The notes beneath the pieces were generated by a model. It was not told the DNA's origin and ran no database searches. It saw only the letters and a program-made list of their open reading frames with translations. Position numbers and translations under genes: made by a program. Of a DNA stretch of 64,000 bases, positions 6,567 to 26,356 are shown one piece after another; position 1 is the stretch's first letter; each line of letters opens with the position of its first letter. This DNA is from Pigmentiphaga sp. NML030171 (GTDB taxonomy: Bacteria; Pseudomonadota; Gammaproteobacteria; Burkholderiales; Burkholderiaceae_B). Location: assembly GCF_002188635.1 (NCBI RefSeq), contig NZ_NINX01000041.1, forward strand, positions 62,001 to 126,000. The letters run 5' to 3'.

Positions 6567-7310
6567 ATGGCCCTGCTCAAAGACACGCCAGAGCCCGCGC
6601 GCGCCGAACCCAACCTGACCGAGCGCATCACACGGATGCTGATGGACGAGATCACCGGCGGGCAATACCAGCTTGGCGAAGTCCTGCCGCCCGAGCAGGT
6701 GATCGCCGACCGGCTGGGCGTATCCCGCACCGTGCTGCGAGAGGCCGTCTCGCGCCTGAAGGCCGAAGGCATCGTCAGCAGCAAGCAAGGCCGTGGCCTG
6801 GCGGTGATCGCGAATACGCCCCTGTCGGTGCTGCGCATGCATGCGGCCAGCGAGGAGGACGTCGAGCAGACCCTGGGCATCGTCGAGTTGCGCCGGGGGT
6901 TCGAGATCGAAGCGGCGGCGCTGGCCGCCGAGCGCCGCACGTCCGAGGACCTGGCCGAGATGCGTGCCGCGCTGTCGGAGATGGGCAAGGCCATCGACAG
7001 CGGCGAGATCGCGCGCGGGGTGGACGCGGACCTGCGTTTTCACCGGGCGGTGGCGCGTGCGACCCGCAATCGCAACTACATCATGTTCTTCGATTTCCTG
7101 GCGGTCCTGCTGCGCAAGAACCTGGAGGTCTCGCGCAGCCGGTCGGCCAAGGTATCGGGGCGCGGCGCCCTGGCGCAGAAAGAGCATGCCCGGTTGCTGG
7201 CCGCCATCGAGAAGGGCGATCCGGAAGCGGCGCGGCAATGCGCGCGGGTCCACGTCGAGAACACCGAAACGCGCCTGCGCAGCGCCATCCAGGAAAAGCC
7301 CGCGCGTTGA
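6567..7310 (+). CDS. GntR-family transcriptional regulator, FCD (FadR) subfamily
   Basis: A 247-residue regulator with an N-terminal winged helix (about 12-80; recognition helix in GVSRTVLREAVSRLKAEG) and an all-alpha FCD ligand domain (about 95-235). The FCD domain keeps the usual metal-binding pattern: D and H in DADLRFHRAV, then H in HARLLAAI and H in RVHVENTE. Such proteins are dimeric repressors released by small carboxylates. AAGGAG precedes the ATG. Its place beside palindromes at three local promoters suggests it controls the whole catabolic cluster and itself. The effector is unknown. Confidence 0.92.
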   Translation: MALLKDTPEPARAEPNLTERITRMLMDEITGGQYQLGEVLPPEQVIADRLGVSRTVLREAVSRLKAEGIVSSKQGRGLAVIANTPLSVLRMHAASEEDVEQTLGIVELRRGFEIEAAALAAERRTSEDLAEMRAALSEMGKAIDSGEIARGVDADLRFHRAVARATRNRNYIMFFDFLAVLLRKNLEVSRSRSAKVSGRGALAQKEHARLLAAIEKGDPEAARQCARVHVENTETRLRSAIQEKPAR

Positions 7311-7422
7311 CCCGGGCCGGCTACGCCCGCTCGTTCCATCCCTGCCGTTCCATTTTCACTCGTGTCCGCGCGTGCGCGCGCGAGCACGGCATTCGTTCGT
7401 CCGTCTGATCCGGAGAAGTGCC

Positions 7423-13548: not shown

Positions 13549-14274
13549 CTAGCAATGGGGGCCGGCCAGGCGCCGCAGCGCCGCCATGTCCACGATCTCG
13601 ACCTGCTTCTGCTGGATGCGCAGCACGCCGGACTTGGCGAAACGCGAGAACAGACGGCTGACGGTCTCGAGGGTCAGTCCCAGGAAGTTGCCGATTTCCT
13701 CGCGGCTCATACGCAGCACGAACGCGGACGAGGAATAGCCGCGCGCGGCCAGGCGCTCCGACAGGCTGACCAGGAAGACGGCCAGCCGTTCCTCGGCGCG
13801 CATGGTACCCAGGGACAGCAGCATCTGCTGGTCTTGTTCGATCTCGCGACTCATCAGCCGCATGAGCTGGCGTTGCAGCGAGGGCAGGTGGTTGGCCAGC
13901 GAGGACAGGTCGCGCACCGGGATCACGCAGACCTCGCTGTCTTCCAGCGCGATGGCGGTCGAAGCATGGCTGTTGCGGCCCAGTCCGTCCAGCCCGACGA
14001 TTTCGCCGGGCAGGTGAAAGCCGGTGATCTGCTGGCGGCCGTCCGCCAGTTCCAGATAGGTCTTCAGGGTGCCGAAGCGGATGCCATAGACGGCGTCCAG
14101 GCCGTCCTCGAAGCGAAAGAGGGATTCGCCCCGGGCGAGCCGCACGCGCTGCTGCACCAGTTCGTCCATTCGCCCGGCATCCTCGGCGGCCATGCCGACA
14201 GGCAGGCAGAACTGCCCCAGCCCGCAGGTCGAGCAGCGTATGGAGTCGAGGGTAAGCGGAATGCGTTTGGTCAT
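13549..14274 (-). CDS. fnr: Fnr-type oxygen-responsive transcriptional regulator (Crp/Fnr family)
   Basis: A 241-residue Crp/Fnr regulator. The N-terminal RCSTCGLGQFCLP supplies three cysteines and SEVCVIPV the fourth, the arrangement that binds an oxygen-sensing [4Fe-4S] cluster in Fnr/Anr proteins. The helix-turn-helix lies in SREEIGNFLGLTLETVSRLFSRF, with the E-SR residues that read TTGAT half-sites. ATG at 14274 gives a normal length; an upstream extension has no family homology. It would switch genes for low-oxygen growth. Targets inside the window are not evident: I found no clear TTGAT-N4-ATCAA site. Confidence 0.93.
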   Translation of the reverse strand: MTKRIPLTLDSIRCSTCGLGQFCLPVGMAAEDAGRMDELVQQRVRLARGESLFRFEDGLDAVYGIRFGTLKTYLELADGRQQITGFHLPGEIVGLDGLGRNSHASTAIALEDSEVCVIPVRDLSSLANHLPSLQRQLMRLMSREIEQDQQMLLSLGTMRAEERLAVFLVSLSERLAARGYSSSAFVLRMSREEIGNFLGLTLETVSRLFSRFAKSGVLRIQQKQVEIVDMAALRRLAGPHC

Positions 14275-15303: not shown

Positions 15304-17244
15304 TCAACCCTGAGGTTCGCGTTGCAGGACGCGGATCAACTGATCGATATCCAGCGGCTTGGTCAGGTGAAAGGCGAACCCGGCATCCAGGCAGCGGCGC
15401 ACGTCGGACTCCATGCCGTAGCCCGTGAGCGCGACCGCGATCTGGTCGGCCTGAGGGGCATAGTGCCGCAGCACGTCGATGCCATCGCCATCGGGCAGCC
15501 CCATGTCGCTGACCAGGACGTCGTAGCGCTTGGCGTCGACGCAGCGGCAGGCTGCCGCCACGTTTTCCGCGACCTCGACCTCGTAGCCGTATTCGCTCAG
15601 CAGGAACTGCATGGCTTCGGCGGTATCGACGTTGTCCTCCACCAGCAGGATGCTGGCGGGGCGGACCAGCGGCGCGGAGACTGGCTGCGCTTGCTCGACC
15701 GGGGCGTCCGGAGCCCCGCTGGCCGGATCGTCCAGCGTCAGCGTGAAGGTCGTGCCCTTGCCCTGGCCGTCGCTGCGCACGCTCAGGGTGCCGCCATGGC
15801 GCTGCGCCAGGGAACTGGCGATGGCCAGCCCCAGCCCCAGGCCGCCGCGCGACTGGGCGGCATCTTCCTCGCCCTGGTCGAAGGCGTCGAAGATGCGCTT
15901 GAGCGCCTGCGGGGGAATCCCGATGCCGGTGTCCGAGACGTCGACGGCGATCTTGCCGGGTATCGGCTGATACACGGTCACGCGTATTTCGCCGCCGCGC
16001 GGCGTGAACTTGATGGCGTTCTTCAGCAGGTTCCAGACGATCTGCTGCAAGCGGGCCGGGTCGGCCTGCACGATGACCGGATAGGGCAGCGGCGTGTAGT
16101 GCAGCTCGATGTGCCGCGCGGCCGCTTCCTCGCGGAAGATCTCGGCGATCCCGTTCAGGATGCCGACCAGGTCGGTGGGTTCGAGGCGCAGGCTGAGCTT
16201 GTCGTTGACGATCTTGGAGATGTCGAGCAGGTCGTCGATCAGGCGTGCCTCGACCTCGACGTTGCGCTTGATGAGTTCGACGCTGCGGCGGCATTCGGGG
16301 GACAGGTCCTGGCGCAGGTCCAGCGCCTGCGCCGCCGCGTAGATCGGGCCCAGCGGCGTGCGCAGCTCGTGCGACAGCACGGCCAGGAAGCGGTCCTTGG
16401 CGCGGTTGGCGGCCTCGGCCTGTTCCTTGGCCACCTGCAGCAGATCGGCCGCGACCCGGCTGTCGGTCATGTCGCGCACGATGCGCGAGAAGCCGCGCAC
16501 GGCGCCGCCATTGCCGAAAATGGCGGTCGTCACGACCGAGGCATAGAACGTGGCGCCGTTCTTGCGCATCAGCCATCGTTCCTCGGCCAGGCTGTTGCCG
16601 GTGCCGATGTCGGCGAGCTGCTGGCGTAGCGGCACGGGCTCGGGCTGGCCTGGCTCGGGCGGGAGATTGAACATGTCGCCCGGGCGCCCGATCACCTCTT
16701 CGGCCGGATAGCCGAACAGCCATTCCGACGCGCGGTTCCAGCTCTCTATCGTACCTTCCAGCGACAGCGTGGCCACCGAGTAGTCCCGCAGCGCATCTAT
16801 CAACTGGCCGAAATAGGTTTCGCTCTCGCGCAGCCGGCGCTCGGCATCGTGCCGGGACCGCCGCTCCCGGGCTTCATCCAGCGCCCGCCTCACGACGATG
16901 GGCAGGCGCTCCAGGCGTTGCTTGAGCACGTAGTCGGTCGCGCCTTCTTTGAGCATGTCGACCGCGTGTTCCTCTCCCAGGACACCCGAGACGAAGATAA
17001 AGGGCAGGGCCGTGGGGTGGCTGCGCGCGATCCGCAGCGCCTCGCTGCCGGGAAAGCCCGGCATGTGGAAGTCGGACAGCACGAGATCGAAGTTGCCGGC
17101 GTCCAGGGCCCGGGTGAAGTCGGCTTCGTTGTTGACGATGACGCTCTCCACATCGAGCCCCGAGCTCGACAGGCGTTCCAGTGTCAGTTCCGCGTCGTGA
17201 GGATCGTCCTCGGCAAGCAGGACGCGCATGGGAGACGGGTTCAC
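15304..17244 (-). CDS. hybrid sensor histidine kinase with N- and C-terminal receiver domains
   Basis: A 646-residue cytosolic hybrid kinase. Domain order is receiver (about 5-120, phospho-acceptor D58 in LSDFHMPG), PAS (about 145-265), HisKA with H292 in FLAVLSHELRTPLG, HATPase_c (N-box NLLKNAIKFTP, G1 DTGIGIPP, G2 GGLGLGLAIA) and a second receiver (about 520-640; D580 in VSDMGLPDG, K629 in TKPLD). No transmembrane segment is visible, so input is cytosolic or arrives by phosphotransfer to the first receiver. It overlaps the upstream response regulator by four bases and follows a phytochrome-like kinase, so the three probably form one relay. No output domain is encoded here. Confidence 0.92.
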   Translation of the reverse strand: MNPSPMRVLLAEDDPHDAELTLERLSSSGLDVESVIVNNEADFTRALDAGNFDLVLSDFHMPGFPGSEALRIARSHPTALPFIFVSGVLGEEHAVDMLKEGATDYVLKQRLERLPIVVRRALDEARERRSRHDAERRLRESETYFGQLIDALRDYSVATLSLEGTIESWNRASEWLFGYPAEEVIGRPGDMFNLPPEPGQPEPVPLRQQLADIGTGNSLAEERWLMRKNGATFYASVVTTAIFGNGGAVRGFSRIVRDMTDSRVAADLLQVAKEQAEAANRAKDRFLAVLSHELRTPLGPIYAAAQALDLRQDLSPECRRSVELIKRNVEVEARLIDDLLDISKIVNDKLSLRLEPTDLVGILNGIAEIFREEAAARHIELHYTPLPYPVIVQADPARLQQIVWNLLKNAIKFTPRGGEIRVTVYQPIPGKIAVDVSDTGIGIPPQALKRIFDAFDQGEEDAAQSRGGLGLGLAIASSLAQRHGGTLSVRSDGQGKGTTFTLTLDDPASGAPDAPVEQAQPVSAPLVRPASILLVEDNVDTAEAMQFLLSEYGYEVEVAENVAAACRCVDAKRYDVLVSDMGLPDGDGIDVLRHYAPQADQIAVALTGYGMESDVRRCLDAGFAFHLTKPLDIDQLIRVLQREPQG

Positions 17245-17726
17245 GTTGGCTGGCTCCGGGAATCGCGGTTGCTGCGGGCGGCGGTGCGTCGCAGAGAGCC
17301 TGGAGGGGGCTCGTTCAACACTGCCCAGAATACGCCCAGTTCCCCGATCGCGCGCACGAAATCCGGAAAATTCACCGGTTTGACCACGTAGGCGTTGACG
17401 CCCAGGTCATAGGCGCGAACGAGGTCGCTTTCCTCGCTGGACGAGGTCAGCATGACCACGGGAACGTTCTGTAGCCCGCGATCCCCGCGTATGAACTGGA
17501 GCAGTTCCAGTCCATCCATCTTGGGCAGCTTCAGATCCAGCAGGATGACCGCGGGGTTGCCGACCGGCCTGTCCTGATGGTGCCCGCGGCGGCACAGGTA
17601 ATCGGCCGCCTCCTCGCCATCGCGCGCCACCACCACGTCGTTGGCGAGCTGGCTTCTCTCGAGCGCGATCAGGGTCAATTCGAGGTCCTGGGGACTGTCT
17701 TCGACCAACAGAATGGGCTTGAGCAT
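17241..17726 (-). CDS. stand-alone receiver (RcpA-like response regulator)
   Basis: A 161-residue single receiver domain with no output domain. The acidic pair is in LLVEDSPQD, phospho-acceptor D64 in LLDLKLPKMDG, switch T/S in MLTSSSEE and K116 in VVKPVNF. The insert between helix 2 and strand 3 (CRRGHHQDRPVGNP) is typical of receivers encoded beside phytochrome kinases such as cyanobacterial RcpA. It starts 10 bases after the phytochrome-like kinase and overlaps the hybrid kinase, so it is the natural phospho-acceptor of one or both. The C-terminal tail of about 25 residues is low-complexity. Confidence 0.9.
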   Translation of the reverse strand: MLKPILLVEDSPQDLELTLIALERSQLANDVVVARDGEEAADYLCRRGHHQDRPVGNPAVILLDLKLPKMDGLELLQFIRGDRGLQNVPVVMLTSSSEESDLVRAYDLGVNAYVVKPVNFPDFVRAIGELGVFWAVLNEPPPGSLRRTAARSNRDSRSQPT

Positions 17727-17736
17727 GACGGGGATC

Positions 17737-19893
17737 TCACTCCTTCATGGCGGCCGCGGTTGCGGCAGGGGGTTGGGCGCCGGGCAGGAACACGTAGAAG
17801 GTCGCCCCCTGGCCGGGAGTGCCTTCGGCCCACACGCGGCCGCCGTGGCGTTCGACGATGCGGCGGACGTTGGCCAGGCCTATGCCGGTGCCCTCGAATT
17901 CTTCCATGCGATGCAGCCGCTGGAATACGCCGAATAGTTTGCCGACATATTTCATGTCGAAACCCACACCATTGTCGCGCACGTAGATGACATGGCCCCC
18001 ATGCCGAGGCCAGGCGCCGATCTCGATGACCGCGGGATCGCGGCCGCGCGTGTACTTGATGGCGTTGGACAACAGATTGCGCAGCGCCAGGTGCATGTAG
18101 GCGGCGTCTGCGTGGACGGACGGCAGCTCGCCCATGATCCAGTCCACCTGTCGGCCGTCCAGGTCGGGGGCGAGTTCCCGGCGTATCTGCTCGAGCGCCT
18201 GCGACAGATCGATTTGCGAGGGCCGCAGGGCCGAGCGGCCCATCTGCGAGAAGGTCAGCAGCGCGTCGACCAGCCTGCCGGCGAAGCGGGCCGAATCGCC
18301 GATGTTGTCGAGGTAGCGCGCGCCCCGGTCAGACAGGCGAGGCCCCTCGTATTCGCGCAGCAGGTCGGCGTAGCCCGCGATATGGCGCAACGGCGCGCGC
18401 AGGTCGTGCGACACGCTGTACGAGAAGGCCTCGAGTTCCTGGTTGATGCGGCCGAGTTCGTCGGCCAGGCCTGCCAGCTCCTCGGCCTTGCGCAGCACGA
18501 TGCCGGTGATGGCGGTGCGCAGTTCCGCCGCGCTTTCCAGCTCGCACGCCTGCCAGGGACGGGCGCGGCCGCGCGTCCATTCCGGCCGGAACCAGAGCAC
18601 GTAGTTGGCATGCAGTTCCGAGATCGGCAGCGCCAGCACGCCGCAGGCCACGTCCCGCAGCGAAGCGAACTCGGGGGCCTCGCCGGGCAGGCTGGCTGTA
18701 TGGAAGAGCCCCGTGCCGCCCGTGCGCGCAAGCCGGGCCGACAGGGCCTGCACGACCCGGCGGCTGGGAGCCTGGCCGAAGGTCTGGCATTCGTTGCCAT
18801 GCACGATGGCCGCGCCGGTGGCGTCCGCGAACTCGAGCAGGGCCTCCGGTACGCTGGCCAGCCCGGCGGGCACGCTGTCGTGCCGCGACATCGCGGCCAG
18901 CAGCATGCCCGTCAGGCGCTGCAATTCGTGCCGCCGGTCCGCCTCGGCCTGGGCCTGGCGAGCCTCGATCTGCAGCGCGACGACCTGCGCGAGCAGGTCG
19001 CATTGGGAGCGTACGGCCTGCGGCATGGTCCGGGGCTGGGCATGGTGGCACGCGATCATGCCCCAGAGCCGGCCCTGCGACATCAGCGGCAGCGACATCG
19101 CCGCGCGGGCTCCTACGTCTTCCAGGCAATGCAGCAGTGTGGGTGGTGCCGCGCGCAGGCTCGCCAGGCTCAGGTCCGTGCACGCGCCCGTGGCGGGGTG
19201 GCGGGCCGGTTCCAGCGGCGAAGGTTCGCTGCCGGTGTCGGGAATGTAGTTCAGGCCTTGGGCCCGGGCGTCGGCGCGAGCCTGGAGCGGCTGCCCCACG
19301 GCCGGAAAATGCCGGCCCAGCAGCGAGGCATAGCCGCGGCCGCGGCGTTCGGCATTGACACGGCCGTGGCCGTCGGGGTCGAGTTCCAGGGAAACCACGC
19401 GCCCGAAGCCGGTCATCCTGCGGATCCGTTCGACCGCCAGCTCGCATAGCTCGTCGGCGGTCTGGCAGCGCTGCGCCTGGTCGACGAACCCCCCCAGGTC
19501 GGACGGCCGGACCTGCGGCGCCGCGGGTTCGAACTCGGCCACGATGGACTCGCCGTGCCGGTGGACCACCAGGTCGAAGCGGCCGCCCACGGCGATGAAA
19601 GCCACGGTGCCCAGATGGTGGGGAATGCGTTCGGCCTGGGTCGCCGCGCGCAGCCGTTCGTGGAAGCGGCCGTCGGCGGGGTGCACCAGGTAGGCCAGCC
19701 TCTGGCCCAGCAGCTCGGCGGGCGGTGCGTTCAGGTGTTGCCGTACGGATGCGCTGGCCTGCAGGATCGTGCCGCGGGCACGGTCGAGCACGAGCAGGAA
19801 GCCGTGGGGCTGGATGGCGTGCGGCGGGCGGGTGGACCCGCTCGCGCGCGCGGCCGGAATGTCCTTGCCGGACGCGGGACTCGGGAGGTGCAC
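17737..19893 (-). CDS. phytochrome-like histidine kinase with degenerate photosensory module
   Basis: A 718-residue PAS-GAF-PHY-HisKA-HATPase protein of bacteriophytochrome architecture. The PAS lasso region keeps AIQPHGFLLVL (about 26-36), but the biliverdin-binding cysteine normally about 11 residues earlier is absent (arginine at that spot). In GAF the PASDIP motif reads FPAVGQP (196-202), losing the pyrrole-contacting aspartate, and the chromophore histidine before the bilin pocket is L253; only the later ACHH (281-284) remains. PHY runs from WFRPE (434-438) straight to WTRGRARPW, omitting the tongue hairpin. The kinase is intact: H496 in YSVSHDLRAPL, NLLSNAIKYT, and FEGTGIGLA. The GTG start at 19893 is uncertain: the frame is open to about 19965, but without another usual start codon. 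Confidence 0.88.
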   Translation of the reverse strand: MHLPSPASGKDIPAARASGSTRPPHAIQPHGFLLVLDRARGTILQASASVRQHLNAPPAELLGQRLAYLVHPADGRFHERLRAATQAERIPHHLGTVAFIAVGGRFDLVVHRHGESIVAEFEPAAPQVRPSDLGGFVDQAQRCQTADELCELAVERIRRMTGFGRVVSLELDPDGHGRVNAERRGRGYASLLGRHFPAVGQPLQARADARAQGLNYIPDTGSEPSPLEPARHPATGACTDLSLASLRAAPPTLLHCLEDVGARAAMSLPLMSQGRLWGMIACHHAQPRTMPQAVRSQCDLLAQVVALQIEARQAQAEADRRHELQRLTGMLLAAMSRHDSVPAGLASVPEALLEFADATGAAIVHGNECQTFGQAPSRRVVQALSARLARTGGTGLFHTASLPGEAPEFASLRDVACGVLALPISELHANYVLWFRPEWTRGRARPWQACELESAAELRTAITGIVLRKAEELAGLADELGRINQELEAFSYSVSHDLRAPLRHIAGYADLLREYEGPRLSDRGARYLDNIGDSARFAGRLVDALLTFSQMGRSALRPSQIDLSQALEQIRRELAPDLDGRQVDWIMGELPSVHADAAYMHLALRNLLSNAIKYTRGRDPAVIEIGAWPRHGGHVIYVRDNGVGFDMKYVGKLFGVFQRLHRMEEFEGTGIGLANVRRIVERHGGRVWAEGTPGQGATFYVFLPGAQPPAATAAAMKE

Positions 19894-20022
19894 CTGGTTC
19901 GAGGTCGAAGGGAGCGAACCCTCATAGTATGCACGTCCGTGCGCGCGCCCTCCGCATCGGCCGGATTATGTAGCGATACTTACAGCACGTCTCAATTCGG
20001 AGACGGGGCCGCCGGCATGGCC

Positions 20023-22856: not shown

Positions 22857-23639
22857 ATGTGCCAATTGCTAGGCATGAACGGCAACACGCCGACCGACAT
22901 CGTGTTCAGCTTCACCGGCTTCGCCACACGGGCCGGCCGCACCGGCGAGCACGTCGACGGCTGGGGCATCGCCTTCTTCGAGGGAGCGGGAGTGCGCCAC
23001 TTCGTGGACCACGAACCGGCTCTGCTGTCTCCGGTGGCGGACCTGATCCGGCACTATCCGATCAAGTCGCGGAACGTGATCGCGCACATCCGCAAGGCGA
23101 CGGTGGGGCGCGTCGCGCTGGAGAACTGCCATCCGTTCGTACGCGAACTGTGGGGGCGCTACTGGGTGTTCGCGCACAACGGCGACCTGGTGAACTATCT
23201 TCCCACGCTGGACGGCCCCTACCGGCCGGTGGGCGACACGGACAGCGAGCGGGCCTTCTGCTGGATGCTGCAATCCCTGCGGGCGCGCTTCGCCTGCCAC
23301 CCGGGCGTCGAGGCCCTGGCCGATGCGCTGGGCGAGCTGAGCGCCGGGGTCGCCCAGCACGGCACCTTCAATTTCATGCTGTCGGACGGCGAGGCGCTGT
23401 ACGTCCATTGCTCCACGCGCCTGCACTACCTGGTGCGCCAGCACCCCTTCGCCACCGCCAGCCTGTCGGACGACGAGGTCAGCGTGGATTTCGCCCAGGT
23501 GACCACGCCTGACGACCGGGTCGCGGTCATCGTGACCGAGCCCCTGACCACGAACGAAGTCTGGCGCCGCTTCGAACCGGGCGAGCTGATGGTGTTCGTC
23601 GACGGTGCGCCGGTGTTGGCGCGCCTGGTCAGCGGCTGA
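22857..23639 (+). CDS. class II glutamine amidotransferase (YafJ-like)
   Basis: A 260-residue Ntn-hydrolase glutaminase. The protein opens MCQLLGMN, so processing would expose Cys2 as nucleophile. HIRKATVG, NCHPFV, FAHNGDL and GDTDSERAF are family motifs for glutamine binding and the oxyanion hole. It lacks an acceptor-synthase domain, so it belongs to the stand-alone YafJ/DUG3-type group that hydrolyses gamma-glutamyl bonds or has an unknown acceptor. It is divergent from the importer operon, and its last 11 bases overlap the convergent uraD-allC fusion gene. A link to nitrogen salvage is suggested by context alone. Confidence 0.9.
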   Translation: MCQLLGMNGNTPTDIVFSFTGFATRAGRTGEHVDGWGIAFFEGAGVRHFVDHEPALLSPVADLIRHYPIKSRNVIAHIRKATVGRVALENCHPFVRELWGRYWVFAHNGDLVNYLPTLDGPYRPVGDTDSERAFCWMLQSLRARFACHPGVEALADALGELSAGVAQHGTFNFMLSDGEALYVHCSTRLHYLVRQHPFATASLSDDEVSVDFAQVTTPDDRVAVIVTEPLTTNEVWRRFEPGELMVFVDGAPVLARLVSG

Positions 23640-25407
23640 GGGCCGCCGCCATCTGTTCCAGAAAGTCCAGCATCAGTTCGCCGGCCAGCTGGGCATCGTC
23701 GGCCGTCATGGTCTCCAGCGGGTTGTGGCTGATGCCGCCGTTGCCGCAGCGGGTGAACAGCATGGTGATGGACGTGGCCTCGGCCAGCTTCATCGCATCG
23801 TGGCCGGCGCCCGACGGCAGTTCGAAGGCGGGCAGGCCGCGTTCGGCGATGGCGCGCGACCACATGGCCATCTGCTCCCGGGCGCAGGGCGCGGCGGCGG
23901 CGCGCATCAGTTCCTCGGTCGTGACCGTGATGCCGCGCCGCGAGCAGATGGCCGATATCTCCCGCTCGATGTCGGCCAGCGCCGCGTCGCGCACGGCGTT
24001 GTCGGCGGCGCGCAGGTCCAGCGACAGGGTGCAGGCGCCGGGAATGACGTTTATCGAGCCGTGGGGCACGTTCAATATCCCCACCGTGCCGACCAGCGAC
24101 GGCACCTGCGCGCAGCGCCGTTCCACCGCCAGCACGATCTCGGCCGCGGCGCAGGCGGCGTCGCGGCGCATGTCCATGGGTGTGGTGCCGGCGTGGCTGG
24201 CGACGCCGCCCAGGGTCATGAGCCGCCGCACGCTGCCGGCGATGGAGGTGACCACGCCCACCGGCAGGTTGCGTTCCAGCAGCACCGGCCCCTGTTCGAT
24301 GTGGATCTCGAAGTAGTGCCGCAGGCGCGCCGCCTCGGCCGCCGCCTTGCCCAGTTGTTCCGGATCGAGGCCCGCGAGCTGCATGGCCTCGCGCATGCTG
24401 ATGTCGGAGGCGTCCAGCGCATCCAGCACGCTGGGGTCGAAGCGGCCGATGTAGGCCGACGAACCCAGGAAGGTGCTGCCGTAGCGCACGCCTTCCTCCT
24501 CGGCGAAGGCCACCACGTCCAGGTCGAAGGGCAGGCGGCGGTTGCGCCGTTTCAGGTCGGCCACGACGGCGATGGGCAGCAGGACTCCCAGGCGGCCGTC
24601 GTATTTTCCGCCGTTGCGGACCGTGTCGTAATGGCTGCCGGTGGCCACCAGCTGCGGCTCGGCCACGGTGGGAGCGGCACGGTAGCGGCCCACGACGTTG
24701 CCGGCCGCGTCCTGGTAGACGGAGTCGAACCCGGCTTCCAGCATCCAGCTCTGGAGGCGGGCCGCCACCGCGCGGTGGGCGGCGGACAGGTAGGTGCAGG
24801 TCAGATGGTCGGGGGAATCGGAGTAGCTGGCCAGCGTCTCGGCCCAGTCCATGACGGCATCGCCATAGGGCCGGGCGAGCGAGAGCCGGTCCGCCAGACG
24901 GATCTCGGCGATCCGGTCGATTTGCCGCAGGGCTTCGGCGAACTCCTGGTCGGGCGCGTGGCGCAGCCGGCGTTCCAGGGCGGCGATGATGTCGTAGCGG
25001 CTCAGGCCGGCGCCGGTGGGCCCCCGCACGGCGATGATGAACGGGAATCCGAAGCGGCTGTTGTAGGCCGCGTTCAATTGCTGCAGCAGTTCGAACTCCT
25101 CGGGCGAACACTGGGTGAGTCCGGCGCGCGCCTGTTCGCCGGCCGAATCCTCGGTCAGCTGGCCCGCCACGGCGGCGCGGCCGGCCAACTCGGGATGGGC
25201 ACGGATCAGCGCCAGCTGTTCGTCCCGGCTGGCCTGCCGCACGGTCTGCGCCAGCGCGTACTTGAGCGCGGCGGCCGAGGCGAACGGCCGCCGCGCGGCG
25301 GTCCGCTCCAGCACCCAGGGGCTGTGCTCGTACAGCCCGTCCAGGAACTGGACGAAGCGGACGGGGTCGGCGGTATTCAGGACGTCGAGCGTGAGCGAGG
25401 AGGTCAT
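23629..25407 (-). CDS. fused OHCU decarboxylase - allantoate amidohydrolase
   Basis: A 592-residue two-domain protein. Residues 1 to about 175 are OHCU decarboxylase (UraD): catalytic H71 in RAHPELAG and NSRFGFPFIIAVRG. It converts 2-oxo-4-hydroxy-4-carboxy-5-ureidoimidazoline to S-allantoin. Residues about 178-592 are an M20-family allantoate amidohydrolase (AllC): GSHYDTVRNGGKYDG and FAEEEGVRYG carry the metal ligands, with HIEQGPVLL and GISHNP. It releases ammonia and ureidoglycine-type product from allantoate. The allantoinase gene lies just upstream, so the protein joins the step before allantoinase to the step after. No frameshift is needed; each domain is normally a separate protein. 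Confidence 0.92.
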   Translation of the reverse strand: MTSSLTLDVLNTADPVRFVQFLDGLYEHSPWVLERTAARRPFASAAALKYALAQTVRQASRDEQLALIRAHPELAGRAAVAGQLTEDSAGEQARAGLTQCSPEEFELLQQLNAAYNSRFGFPFIIAVRGPTGAGLSRYDIIAALERRLRHAPDQEFAEALRQIDRIAEIRLADRLSLARPYGDAVMDWAETLASYSDSPDHLTCTYLSAAHRAVAARLQSWMLEAGFDSVYQDAAGNVVGRYRAAPTVAEPQLVATGSHYDTVRNGGKYDGRLGVLLPIAVVADLKRRNRRLPFDLDVVAFAEEEGVRYGSTFLGSSAYIGRFDPSVLDALDASDISMREAMQLAGLDPEQLGKAAAEAARLRHYFEIHIEQGPVLLERNLPVGVVTSIAGSVRRLMTLGGVASHAGTTPMDMRRDAACAAAEIVLAVERRCAQVPSLVGTVGILNVPHGSINVIPGACTLSLDLRAADNAVRDAALADIEREISAICSRRGITVTTEELMRAAAAPCAREQMAMWSRAIAERGLPAFELPSGAGHDAMKLAEATSITMLFTRCGNGGISHNPLETMTADDAQLAGELMLDFLEQMAAALSR

Positions 25408-25414
25408 GGCGGGA

Positions 25415-26356
25415 TCAGGAGGCGGAGCCGGCAGCCGGCGTGTACGGATGTTCTTGCTTCCAGTGGCGGGCGATGTCGACGCGGCGGCACACCCAGACGT
25501 CCTGGTGCTTCTCGACGTGATCCAGGAAGCGCTGCAGGGCGGTGAAGCGGCCGGGCCGGCCCAGCAGCCGGCAATGCATGCCCACCGACATCATGCGCGG
25601 CTTGTCGGCGCCTTCCGTGTACAGCACGTCGAAGGTATCGCGCAGGTAGTCGAAGAAATGGCCGGCGGTGTTGAACCCCTGCGGCGTCGCGAAGCGCATG
25701 TCGTTGGCGTCCAGCGTGTAGGGGACGATCAGGTGGGGCTTGCGCGCGCCGGACGAGGTTTCGACTTCGGTCCAGAAGGGCAGGTCGTCGCCGTAGTAGT
25801 CGCTGTCGTACAGGTAGTCGCCTTGCTCGACCAGCAGGCGGCGCGTGTTGGGACTGTCGCGCCCCGTGTACCACCCCAGGGGCCAGGCGCCGTCGGTCAG
25901 CCTGCGCAGGATCTCCGTGCCGCGGTGCATGTGCTCGCGCTCGGTGGCTTCGTCCACGTTCTGGTAGTGGATCCAGCGCCAGCCGTGACAGGCGATTTCG
26001 TGGCCATGTTCCAGGAACGCCGCCGTGGCCTCCAGGTTGCGCTCGAGCGCCATGGCGCAGCCGAACACCGTGAGCGGCAGGCGCCGCCGCTCGAACTCGT
26101 TCAGGATGCGCCAGACCCCCGCGCGCGAGCCGTATTCGTAGATGGAGTCCATGCTCATGTGCCGGGCCGGGTAGGCGGCCGCGCCCACGATCTCGGACAG
26201 GAACTGCTCGGAGGCGGGGTCGCCGTGCAGGACGTGGTTCTCGGCGCCTTCCTCGTAGTTCAGGACGAATTGCACGGCGACGCGGGCGCGATTGGGCCAG
26301 CGTGCGTCGGGAAGATGGCGGCCGTAGCCGATCATGTCGCGGGGGTATGCTGTCAT
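25415..26356 (-). CDS. puuE: allantoinase PuuE (polysaccharide-deacetylase fold)
   Basis: A 313-residue cytosolic member of the PuuE family, a metal-independent or divergent polysaccharide-deacetylase-like allantoinase unrelated to the amidohydrolase AllB. It opens YPRDMIGYGR, and LNYEEGAENHVLHGD, MSMDSIYEYGSRAG and ACHGWRWIHYQ are family hallmarks. It hydrolyses S-allantoin to allantoate. The fused uraD-allC gene begins eight bases after its stop, so both are one operon. It is divergent from the HIU hydrolase gene, placing three consecutive steps of urate breakdown around one promoter region. Confidence 0.92.
   Translation of the reverse strand: MTAYPRDMIGYGRHLPDARWPNRARVAVQFVLNYEEGAENHVLHGDPASEQFLSEIVGAAAYPARHMSMDSIYEYGSRAGVWRILNEFERRRLPLTVFGCAMALERNLEATAAFLEHGHEIACHGWRWIHYQNVDEATEREHMHRGTEILRRLTDGAWPLGWYTGRDSPNTRRLLVEQGDYLYDSDYYGDDLPFWTEVETSSGARKPHLIVPYTLDANDMRFATPQGFNTAGHFFDYLRDTFDVLYTEGADKPRMMSVGMHCRLLGRPGRFTALQRFLDHVEKHQDVWVCRRVDIARHWKQEHPYTPAAGSAS

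Follow-up and report, generated by a model that had tools for sequence, protein, structure and literature searches.

A phytochrome-type histidine kinase of Pigmentiphaga that has lost its bilin site and PHY tongue is probably a light-independent switch

Analysis of a 64,000-nucleotide stretch of the Pigmentiphaga sp. NML030171 genome (hereafter the window) indicates that in this soil bacterium and its close relatives a former red-light sensor is now probably a light-independent switch. The reading that we favor, to which we assign a probability of about 0.62, is that the window encodes a light-blind, bilin-free histidine kinase that is independent of light, uses its GAF domain as a scaffold, is likely stuck near a kinase-competent output and arose in place from a former biliverdin phytochrome. 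This reading rests on three genomes that carry such a gene. A preliminary description of this DNA had proposed that red-light sensing is lost with scaffold and kinase retained, a proposal that is strongly supported by the sequence comparisons reported here. In the mechanism that we propose, a normal biliverdin-type phytochrome kinase would have lost light sensing in place within one Pigmentiphaga sub-lineage. Having neither bilin nor tongue, the dimer would be unable to make the Pr/Pfr switch, so that its kinase/phosphatase activity should be independent of light. With linker and kinase unchanged, such a tongue-less, bilin-free dimer should moreover sit in one output state, most likely near the kinase-competent resting (Pr-like) output. 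The adjoining response regulator would then be phosphorylated at a level set by expression, and the emptied GAF domain would persist chiefly as a scaffold for folding and dimerization. Pr is reported to be the kinase-active form in both prototypical and bathy phytochromes (PMC11021371), and coupling between tongue and chromophore is described as affecting the dynamic range of the output (PMC9630206). The output of an apo, tongue-less kinase could also be off or phosphatase-biased. Overall, a constitutive output is favored, with a new input being possible.

The gene encodes 718 amino acids in an open frame that runs from a GTG start at 19893 to a stop at 17737 (Table 1). The PAS_2, GAF, PHY, HisKA and HATPase_c domains each score above their Pfam cut-offs, with the best PHY stretch covering profile positions 2-117 of 183, and the H, N, G1, F and G2 boxes of the kinase are present in the expected order. 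The clean reading frame, the PAS-GAF-PHY-HisKA-HATPase order and the intact kinase motifs noted previously are thus all confirmed. A search of the source genome with the window protein returned one full-length match, with the 24 other matches (E up to 0.001) starting at or after residue 453 and covering linker and kinase.

Table 1. Features of the phytochrome locus, in window coordinates
Feature	Position	Strand	Basis
Phytochrome-type histidine kinase, bilin-site-less and tongue-less	17737..19893	-	ORF, Pfam, congener alignment
N-terminal segment without biliverdin Cys, residues 1-25	19819..19893	-	alignment, upstream frame check
PAS_2 domain, residues 24-124	19522..19824	-	Pfam
GAF domain, residues 147-311	18961..19455	-	Pfam; rate tests
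FPAVGQP replacing FPASDIP, residues 196-202	19288..19308	-	alignment; AlphaFold2 vs control
PPTLLHCLEDV, residues 250-260 (GAF-His position = Leu253, Tyr263 position = Cys256)	19114..19146	-	alignment
PHY core, residues 325-440	18574..18921	-	Pfam; rate tests
Missing-tongue site, W439-T440-R441	18571..18579	-	alignment with congeners
HisKA domain (catalytic His496 codon at 18406-18408)	18238..18432	-	Pfam, motif check
HATPase_c domain, N, G1, F and G2 boxes	17779..18108	-	Pfam, motif check
Single-domain response regulator, partner by position	17241..17726	-	Pfam, synteny
Hybrid kinase (REC, PAS, HisKA, HATPase, REC)	15304..17244	-	Pfam, synteny
Element TTGAGA-N17-TACATAAT upstream of the phytochrome gene, putative promoter	19965..19995	-	by eye

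Eleven Pigmentiphaga genomes were compared (among them P. kullae K24, labeled G003; Pigmentiphaga sp. NML080357, G007; and P. humi, G002), nine of which carry the phytochrome gene. Six of these genes (G001, G002, G004, G005, G007 and G010) are canonical in having an N-terminal Cys, a PASDIP-type Asp, the GAF His and a WAG tongue. The remaining three, from the window, P. kullae and G008, share losses that are absent from the other six and are referred to here as blind. Alignment of the window protein with the six canonical congeners recovered each of the four losses listed in the preliminary description, and those of the pocket were also seen against DrBphP. Specifically, the Cys before AIQPHG is missing, the PASDIP motif reads FPAVGQP with Gly200 at the Asp207 position, the conserved GAF His (His260 position) is replaced by Leu253, and the PHY tongue is missing, with the stretch from WFRPE to the exit measuring 17 residues versus 47-53 in the six congeners. 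The tongue deletion is in frame, leaves the site 30-36 residues shorter than in the canonical congeners, and the 17 residues that remain contain neither the WAG nor the PRxSF feature. As judged from this alignment, the pocket loss is broader than was first stated: Y176, I208, Y216, R222, S257 and Y263 are also changed, while R254, S274 and H290 are retained (DrBphP numbering, anchored on Asp207). The residue names and roles are those of DrBphP, which we take to apply to the corresponding window positions. An automatic flag for the GAF His in the three blind genes is an artefact, as the His in LLHC does not lie at the His260 position. Among the blind species the PASDIP stretch drifts (FPAVGQP, FPADDPS and FPAAEQP); G008 has an Asp in the aligned Asp207 column, but inside the changed motif FPADDPS, and Y176 is retained in G008 and P. 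kullae though it is changed in the window protein. Blind and canonical proteins do not differ in the linker from the exit Trp to the catalytic His496, which measures 49 residues, with the value of 46 printed for G002, G007 and G010 reflecting an extra Trp three residues later.

Homologues sharing all four losses do exist in two other genomes, P. kullae and G008, whose proteins are 86-88% identical to that of the window. Because two further species share the losses, so that three genomes agree, we reject a sequencing error or frame-shift as their source. A longer upstream start that restores the Cys is also rejected: the codons from the in-frame stop upstream to the GTG include a Cys codon and no ATG, GTG or TTG, and therefore no longer start is available. 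Structure prediction is in line with the alignment. AlphaFold2 models made with a 29-row alignment reached a pLDDT of 85.1 for the window protein and 86.6 for a control from NML080357. The control model has a tongue hairpin with strands at 437-442 and 461-466, which in the window model is replaced by a tight short turn (430-435 and 437-439; model numbering is protein numbering minus one) that leads into the signalling helix. The former PASDIP stretch (residues 191-210) is the lowest-confidence region of the modelled PAS-GAF-PHY part, with pLDDT values of 71 and 59 versus 86 and 89 in the control. All of the matches listed by Foldseek are phytochromes, with PDB 8bor at rank 8.

The blind genes occupy the same place in the genome as their canonical counterparts. 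In all three blind species, as in canonical G004, G005, G007 and G010, an ABC ATPase gene is followed by those for a permease, the BphP, the response regulator and the hybrid kinase, with ABC transporter genes that include an NMT1-type binding protein preceding the phytochrome gene. In G001 and G002 the BphP, response regulator and hybrid kinase are kept next to different upstream genes, the G002 locus being on two contigs. Identity of the response regulator is 94-95%. In a protein tree the three blind genes form one clade (support 1.0) that is nested within a larger clade (support 1.0) containing canonical G002, G007 and G010 as well, with G002 placed as sister of the blind clade at a support of 0.25. 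Synteny with four canonical congeners and this nesting inside the genus lead us to reject horizontal replacement by a different gene. The putative promoter element listed in Table 1, which was recognized by eye, occurs in each of the three blind species, and canonical G010 has a substituted version of it; it is absent in G004 and G005, and the excerpt from G007 did not reach the region. A sigma-70 consensus scan upstream of the phytochrome gene gave no match at threshold.

There are indications that the losses were stepwise and that they have gone further in some relatives. The phytochromes of G010, G007 and G002 (L040, L041 and L042) keep the Cys, the PASDIP-type Asp and the His and have a tongue without a clean PRxSF, and their photocycle may be altered. 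That the motif is already compromised in these nearest canonical genes makes it possible that the tongue weakened first and was deleted later. Deletion of the tongue by slippage between flanking repeats was considered and set aside, as inspection by eye found a 6-base match in G010, left as chance, and none in G007. In G006 and G009 the phytochrome and response regulator are both absent and the hybrid kinase is retained at 95% and 93% identity (the G009 genome is listed with 8% contamination). The G006 remnant (L209, about 7090-7320) holds 151 bases of the phytochrome kinase end, 91% identical to the blind gene of G008, together with bits of the two ends of the response regulator. The G009 remnant (L210, about 6792-6917) has a longer response regulator tail, with no phytochrome piece detected in it. 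As each of these genomes has a deletion that is absent from the other, there must have been at least two deletion events. A locus tree (5 genes, 5097 columns) groups G006 with G008 at 75 and both with G003 at 100, with the order of the window and G009 at a support of 47. None of the five close species (window, G003, G008, G006 and G009) has thus kept a photoactive-looking phytochrome. The joint absence of both genes from G006 and G009 also suggests that the phytochrome and the adjoining response regulator form one functional unit. This pair is therefore dispensable in some settings, since these close relatives do without it, which counts against the reading that we favor.

Substitution rates were compared domain by domain. 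In Tajima relative-rate tests of the GAF domain, with G004 and G001 as outgroups, blind genes have 37-41 changes versus 6-12 in canonical genes in all eight comparisons (p 1.7e-4 to 8.7e-7), which share branches and are not independent of each other. GAF is the only domain of the protein with a consistent and significant rate excess in the blind clade. With the same outgroups, no significant excess was found for the PHY core (lowest p 0.07) or the kinase (lowest p 0.47), and PAS gave a single value under 0.05 (0.035). Window versus G007 counts are 10/6 and 6/3 for the response regulator (p 0.32) and 8/12 and 4/12 for the hybrid kinase, the latter with the blind side slower (p 0.046), and neither gene has a significant excess on the blind side. 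Four of twelve comparisons that used G002 as outgroup (GAF 38-41 vs 12-15, p 1.6e-3 to 1.4e-4; kinase 6-8 vs 16-18; PAS p down to 0.012) were set aside because the placement of G002 next to the blind clade is weak. The stem of the blind clade measures 0.53 for GAF versus 0.06 for the kinase. Pairwise Nei-Gojobori dN/dS values among blind species, with intervals from a codon bootstrap, are 0.22-0.30 for GAF, 0.25-0.38 for the PHY core, 0.38-0.44 for PAS (one upper bound 1.006) and 0.09-0.11 for the kinase (upper bounds of at most 0.19). Two canonical pairs, one of which has high dS, gave 0.03-0.08 for GAF, 0.18-0.19 for the PHY core, 0.11-0.31 for PAS and 0.05-0.06 for the kinase. The lower GAF bounds of the blind pairs (0.13) touch one canonical upper bound (0.135), that of the high-dS pair. 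Judged by a dN/dS of about 0.1, the kinase is under strong purifying selection; its blind point values are about twice the canonical ones with overlapping intervals, which leaves room for a slight relaxation in blind kinases as well. The pattern of rates and dN/dS therefore indicates that the bilin pocket has been released from constraint and the other domains at most mildly so, and that the protein is no free pseudogene.

Loss of the tongue is unusual among the proteins surveyed. Among 93 aligned phytochromes the stretch is 17 residues long in 3 and 47-56 residues in 89, with one row being a cut fragment. This set combines 57 named-genome loci (3 of which repeat genus members), 9 genus members and 30 loci from an order survey; the named-genome loci derive from the best 80 of 163 that qualified, 59 of which have a sensory-module match and 57 of which passed a coverage filter. 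The order survey covered 399 genomes drawn evenly, the sole Pigmentiphaga genome being that of the window. A PHY match was present in 43 of them, and only in the window's genome is it split at profile positions 117/150; one further genome has only a short broken fragment below the cut-off. In one Burkholderiales family, 120 of 392 genomes searched gave matches, and all 30 loci fetched from these have the Cys, the His and a PRxSF-like motif (loose pattern). No full-length match above 49% identity was found in those 392 genomes (E up to 1e-90), where partial kinase-side matches reached 60% identity. For comparison, in a published survey of 404 bacteriophytochromes the tongues were reported to differ in length from that of DrBphP by +0 to +10 residues (PMC12362586), and the blind Pigmentiphaga clade is far outside this range. 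Among the papers listed by a literature search, largely without subscription papers, none describes a phytochrome that is naturally tongue-less and none treats Pigmentiphaga and phytochrome together. As far as these searches tell, natural tongue loss and a graded series within one genus are new, loss of chromophore binding being already known. One earlier statement, by which known phytochromes would each require the four features for signalling, proved too broad given exceptions in the 93-protein alignment. For example, in L079, L107 and L108 a Cys adjoins the His in GAF and the N-terminal Cys is absent, and L082, L159 and L168 lack the GAF His with Cys, Asp and tongue retained. L082, L159 and L168, together with L131, have SIMY or SVMY at the GAF-His motif, keep the PASDIP Asp and the tongue, have the N-terminal Cys in three of four cases, and are possibly another unusual subclass.

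The window protein shares with bacteriophytochromes of the BphP type (DrBphP, AtBphP1/Agp1, StBphP2) its domain order, fold matches and adjoining response regulator, and its locus is orthologous to that of its congeners, but it differs from them in being without the chromophore Cys, PASDIP Asp, GAF His and PHY tongue. On the evidence of alignment and motifs, it lacks the chromophore-site and tongue features of a BphP photoreceptor that were tested and has those of a sensor histidine kinase. Scores against the NCBI BphP model are 193.7 for the window, 184.7 for P. kullae and 293-321 for three canonical relatives; the cut-off of 1040 is uninformative for membership because canonical relatives fall under it too. 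Signalling by apo-bacteriophytochromes and by RpBphP4 provides precedents for light-independent phytochrome kinases. In RpBphP4 of Rhodopseudomonas palustris, chromophore binding is said to have been lost naturally in one lineage with retention of the kinase, in a change from light to redox sensing. The window protein has the same combination of a chromophore site lost and a kinase kept, as read from its sequence, as well as clade-specific Cys residues; tongue loss and deletion endpoints are not known to be features of RpBphP4, and the likeness is one of description. PDB 8bor, entitled 'Photosensory module from DrBphP without PHY tongue', is also tongue-less but, unlike the window protein, man-made. 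The sequence match of the window protein to the phytochrome sensory module runs unbroken across the junction (residues 23-466). Tongue-less DrBphP reportedly still carries its chromophore, but its output is no longer controlled by light (Kurttila et al. 2023). The same BphP, response regulator and hybrid kinase operon is found in Ralstonia pickettii SSH4 (L075, 2986-7753; one genome, with open frames for the response regulator and hybrid kinase), where the Cys, PASDIP Asp and GAF His are lost. In contrast to the window protein, that of SSH4 has a full-length though degenerate tongue and keeps Y176, Y216 and R222, and because pocket residues lost by the window are retained there we regard its loss as separate. 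SSH4 branches with canonical Caballeronia in the full-length (0.965) and GAF (0.874) trees and elsewhere in the kinase tree (0.486), and in none of the three does it group with the Pigmentiphaga blind clade.

Several other readings have to be weighed against the one that we favor. The protein may have been repurposed to sense redox through gained cysteines, or a small molecule that occupies the vacated GAF pocket, as RpBphP4 is itself reported to be a bilin-free module that senses something else (redox). This we hold to be rather unlikely. C238, C256 (at the position of Tyr263) and C450, which lies next to the signalling helix, occur in all three blind proteins and in none of the six canonical ones, and purifying selection persists on the sensory domains; because GAF dN/dS is still well below 1, that domain may do more than hold shape. 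However, the fast GAF and drifting PASDIP stretch resemble relaxation rather than a new shared site, and the three common cysteines could have arisen by chance along a single long stem branch. A fast GAF with no new conserved motif except these clade-specific cysteines leans towards there being no new ligand. A more elaborate scheme, which we treat as distinctly unlikely, is that the PRxSF was lost in an ancestor shared with bilin-type congeners, followed by deletion of the tongue and emptying of the pocket, after which thiols gained close to the former D-ring site and at the base of the signalling helix came to control the unchanged kinase-response regulator pair. The result would be a new kind of sensor kinase, with like blindings recurring in Burkholderiales that have the same operon.

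Alternatively, the gene could be a functionless relic in the course of being lost, with G006 and G009 showing the endpoint. The gene and response regulator remnants in G006, the response regulator tail in G009, their differing deletions and the grouping of G006 with blind species are consistent with such decay, but three intact frames, the low kinase dN/dS between blind species, the intact kinase motifs, the unchanged linker length and the response regulator identity of 94-95% make it very improbable. We give hardly any credence to the idea that the protein is still a photoreceptor with non-standard bilin binding, for example through Cys256. Cys256, with His255, falls at the site of Tyr263, which we take to line the bilin pocket, the R254, S274 and H290 positions are kept, and a heme oxygenase gene persists. 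Nevertheless, the protein has lost the residues at the Asp207, Tyr176, Tyr216, Arg222, Ser257 and His260 positions as well as the tongue, and there is one heme oxygenase in each of the 11 genus genomes, including phytochrome-less G006 and G009. This distribution gives no support to a loss of biliverdin supply, and judging from gene content biliverdin could still be produced.

Two studies describe the tongue as a main route of the light signal to the kinase (PMC11021371, PMC9630206). A lineage that drops the tongue and chromophore site and keeps the kinase chain offers a natural experiment for telling scaffold and sensor apart. Within a single genus, the receptors range from full-featured ones through forms whose tongue motif is weakened to blind ones, and in some species the gene is deleted outright; this graded series makes both the order of loss and any residual job of an apo-phytochrome directly testable. 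Annotation of such genes as light sensors would be wrong. The sole heme oxygenase found in the source genome (L046, 6356-9024, contig 23) lies beside Peripla_BP_2 and FecCD genes, a context that suggests heme-iron use, and in G001 the heme oxygenase directly follows the hybrid kinase. Adjoining the NMT1-type ABC transporter on the minus strand at 23629-26356 are genes, named by eye, that we presume to be for purine/allantoin breakdown. Two genes downstream of the hybrid kinase (13549-14271, minus strand) is a regulator of the Crp/FNR type whose N-terminal CSTCGLGQFC cysteine cluster presumably has an iron-sulphur role, and the synteny of this gene is kept in several congeners.
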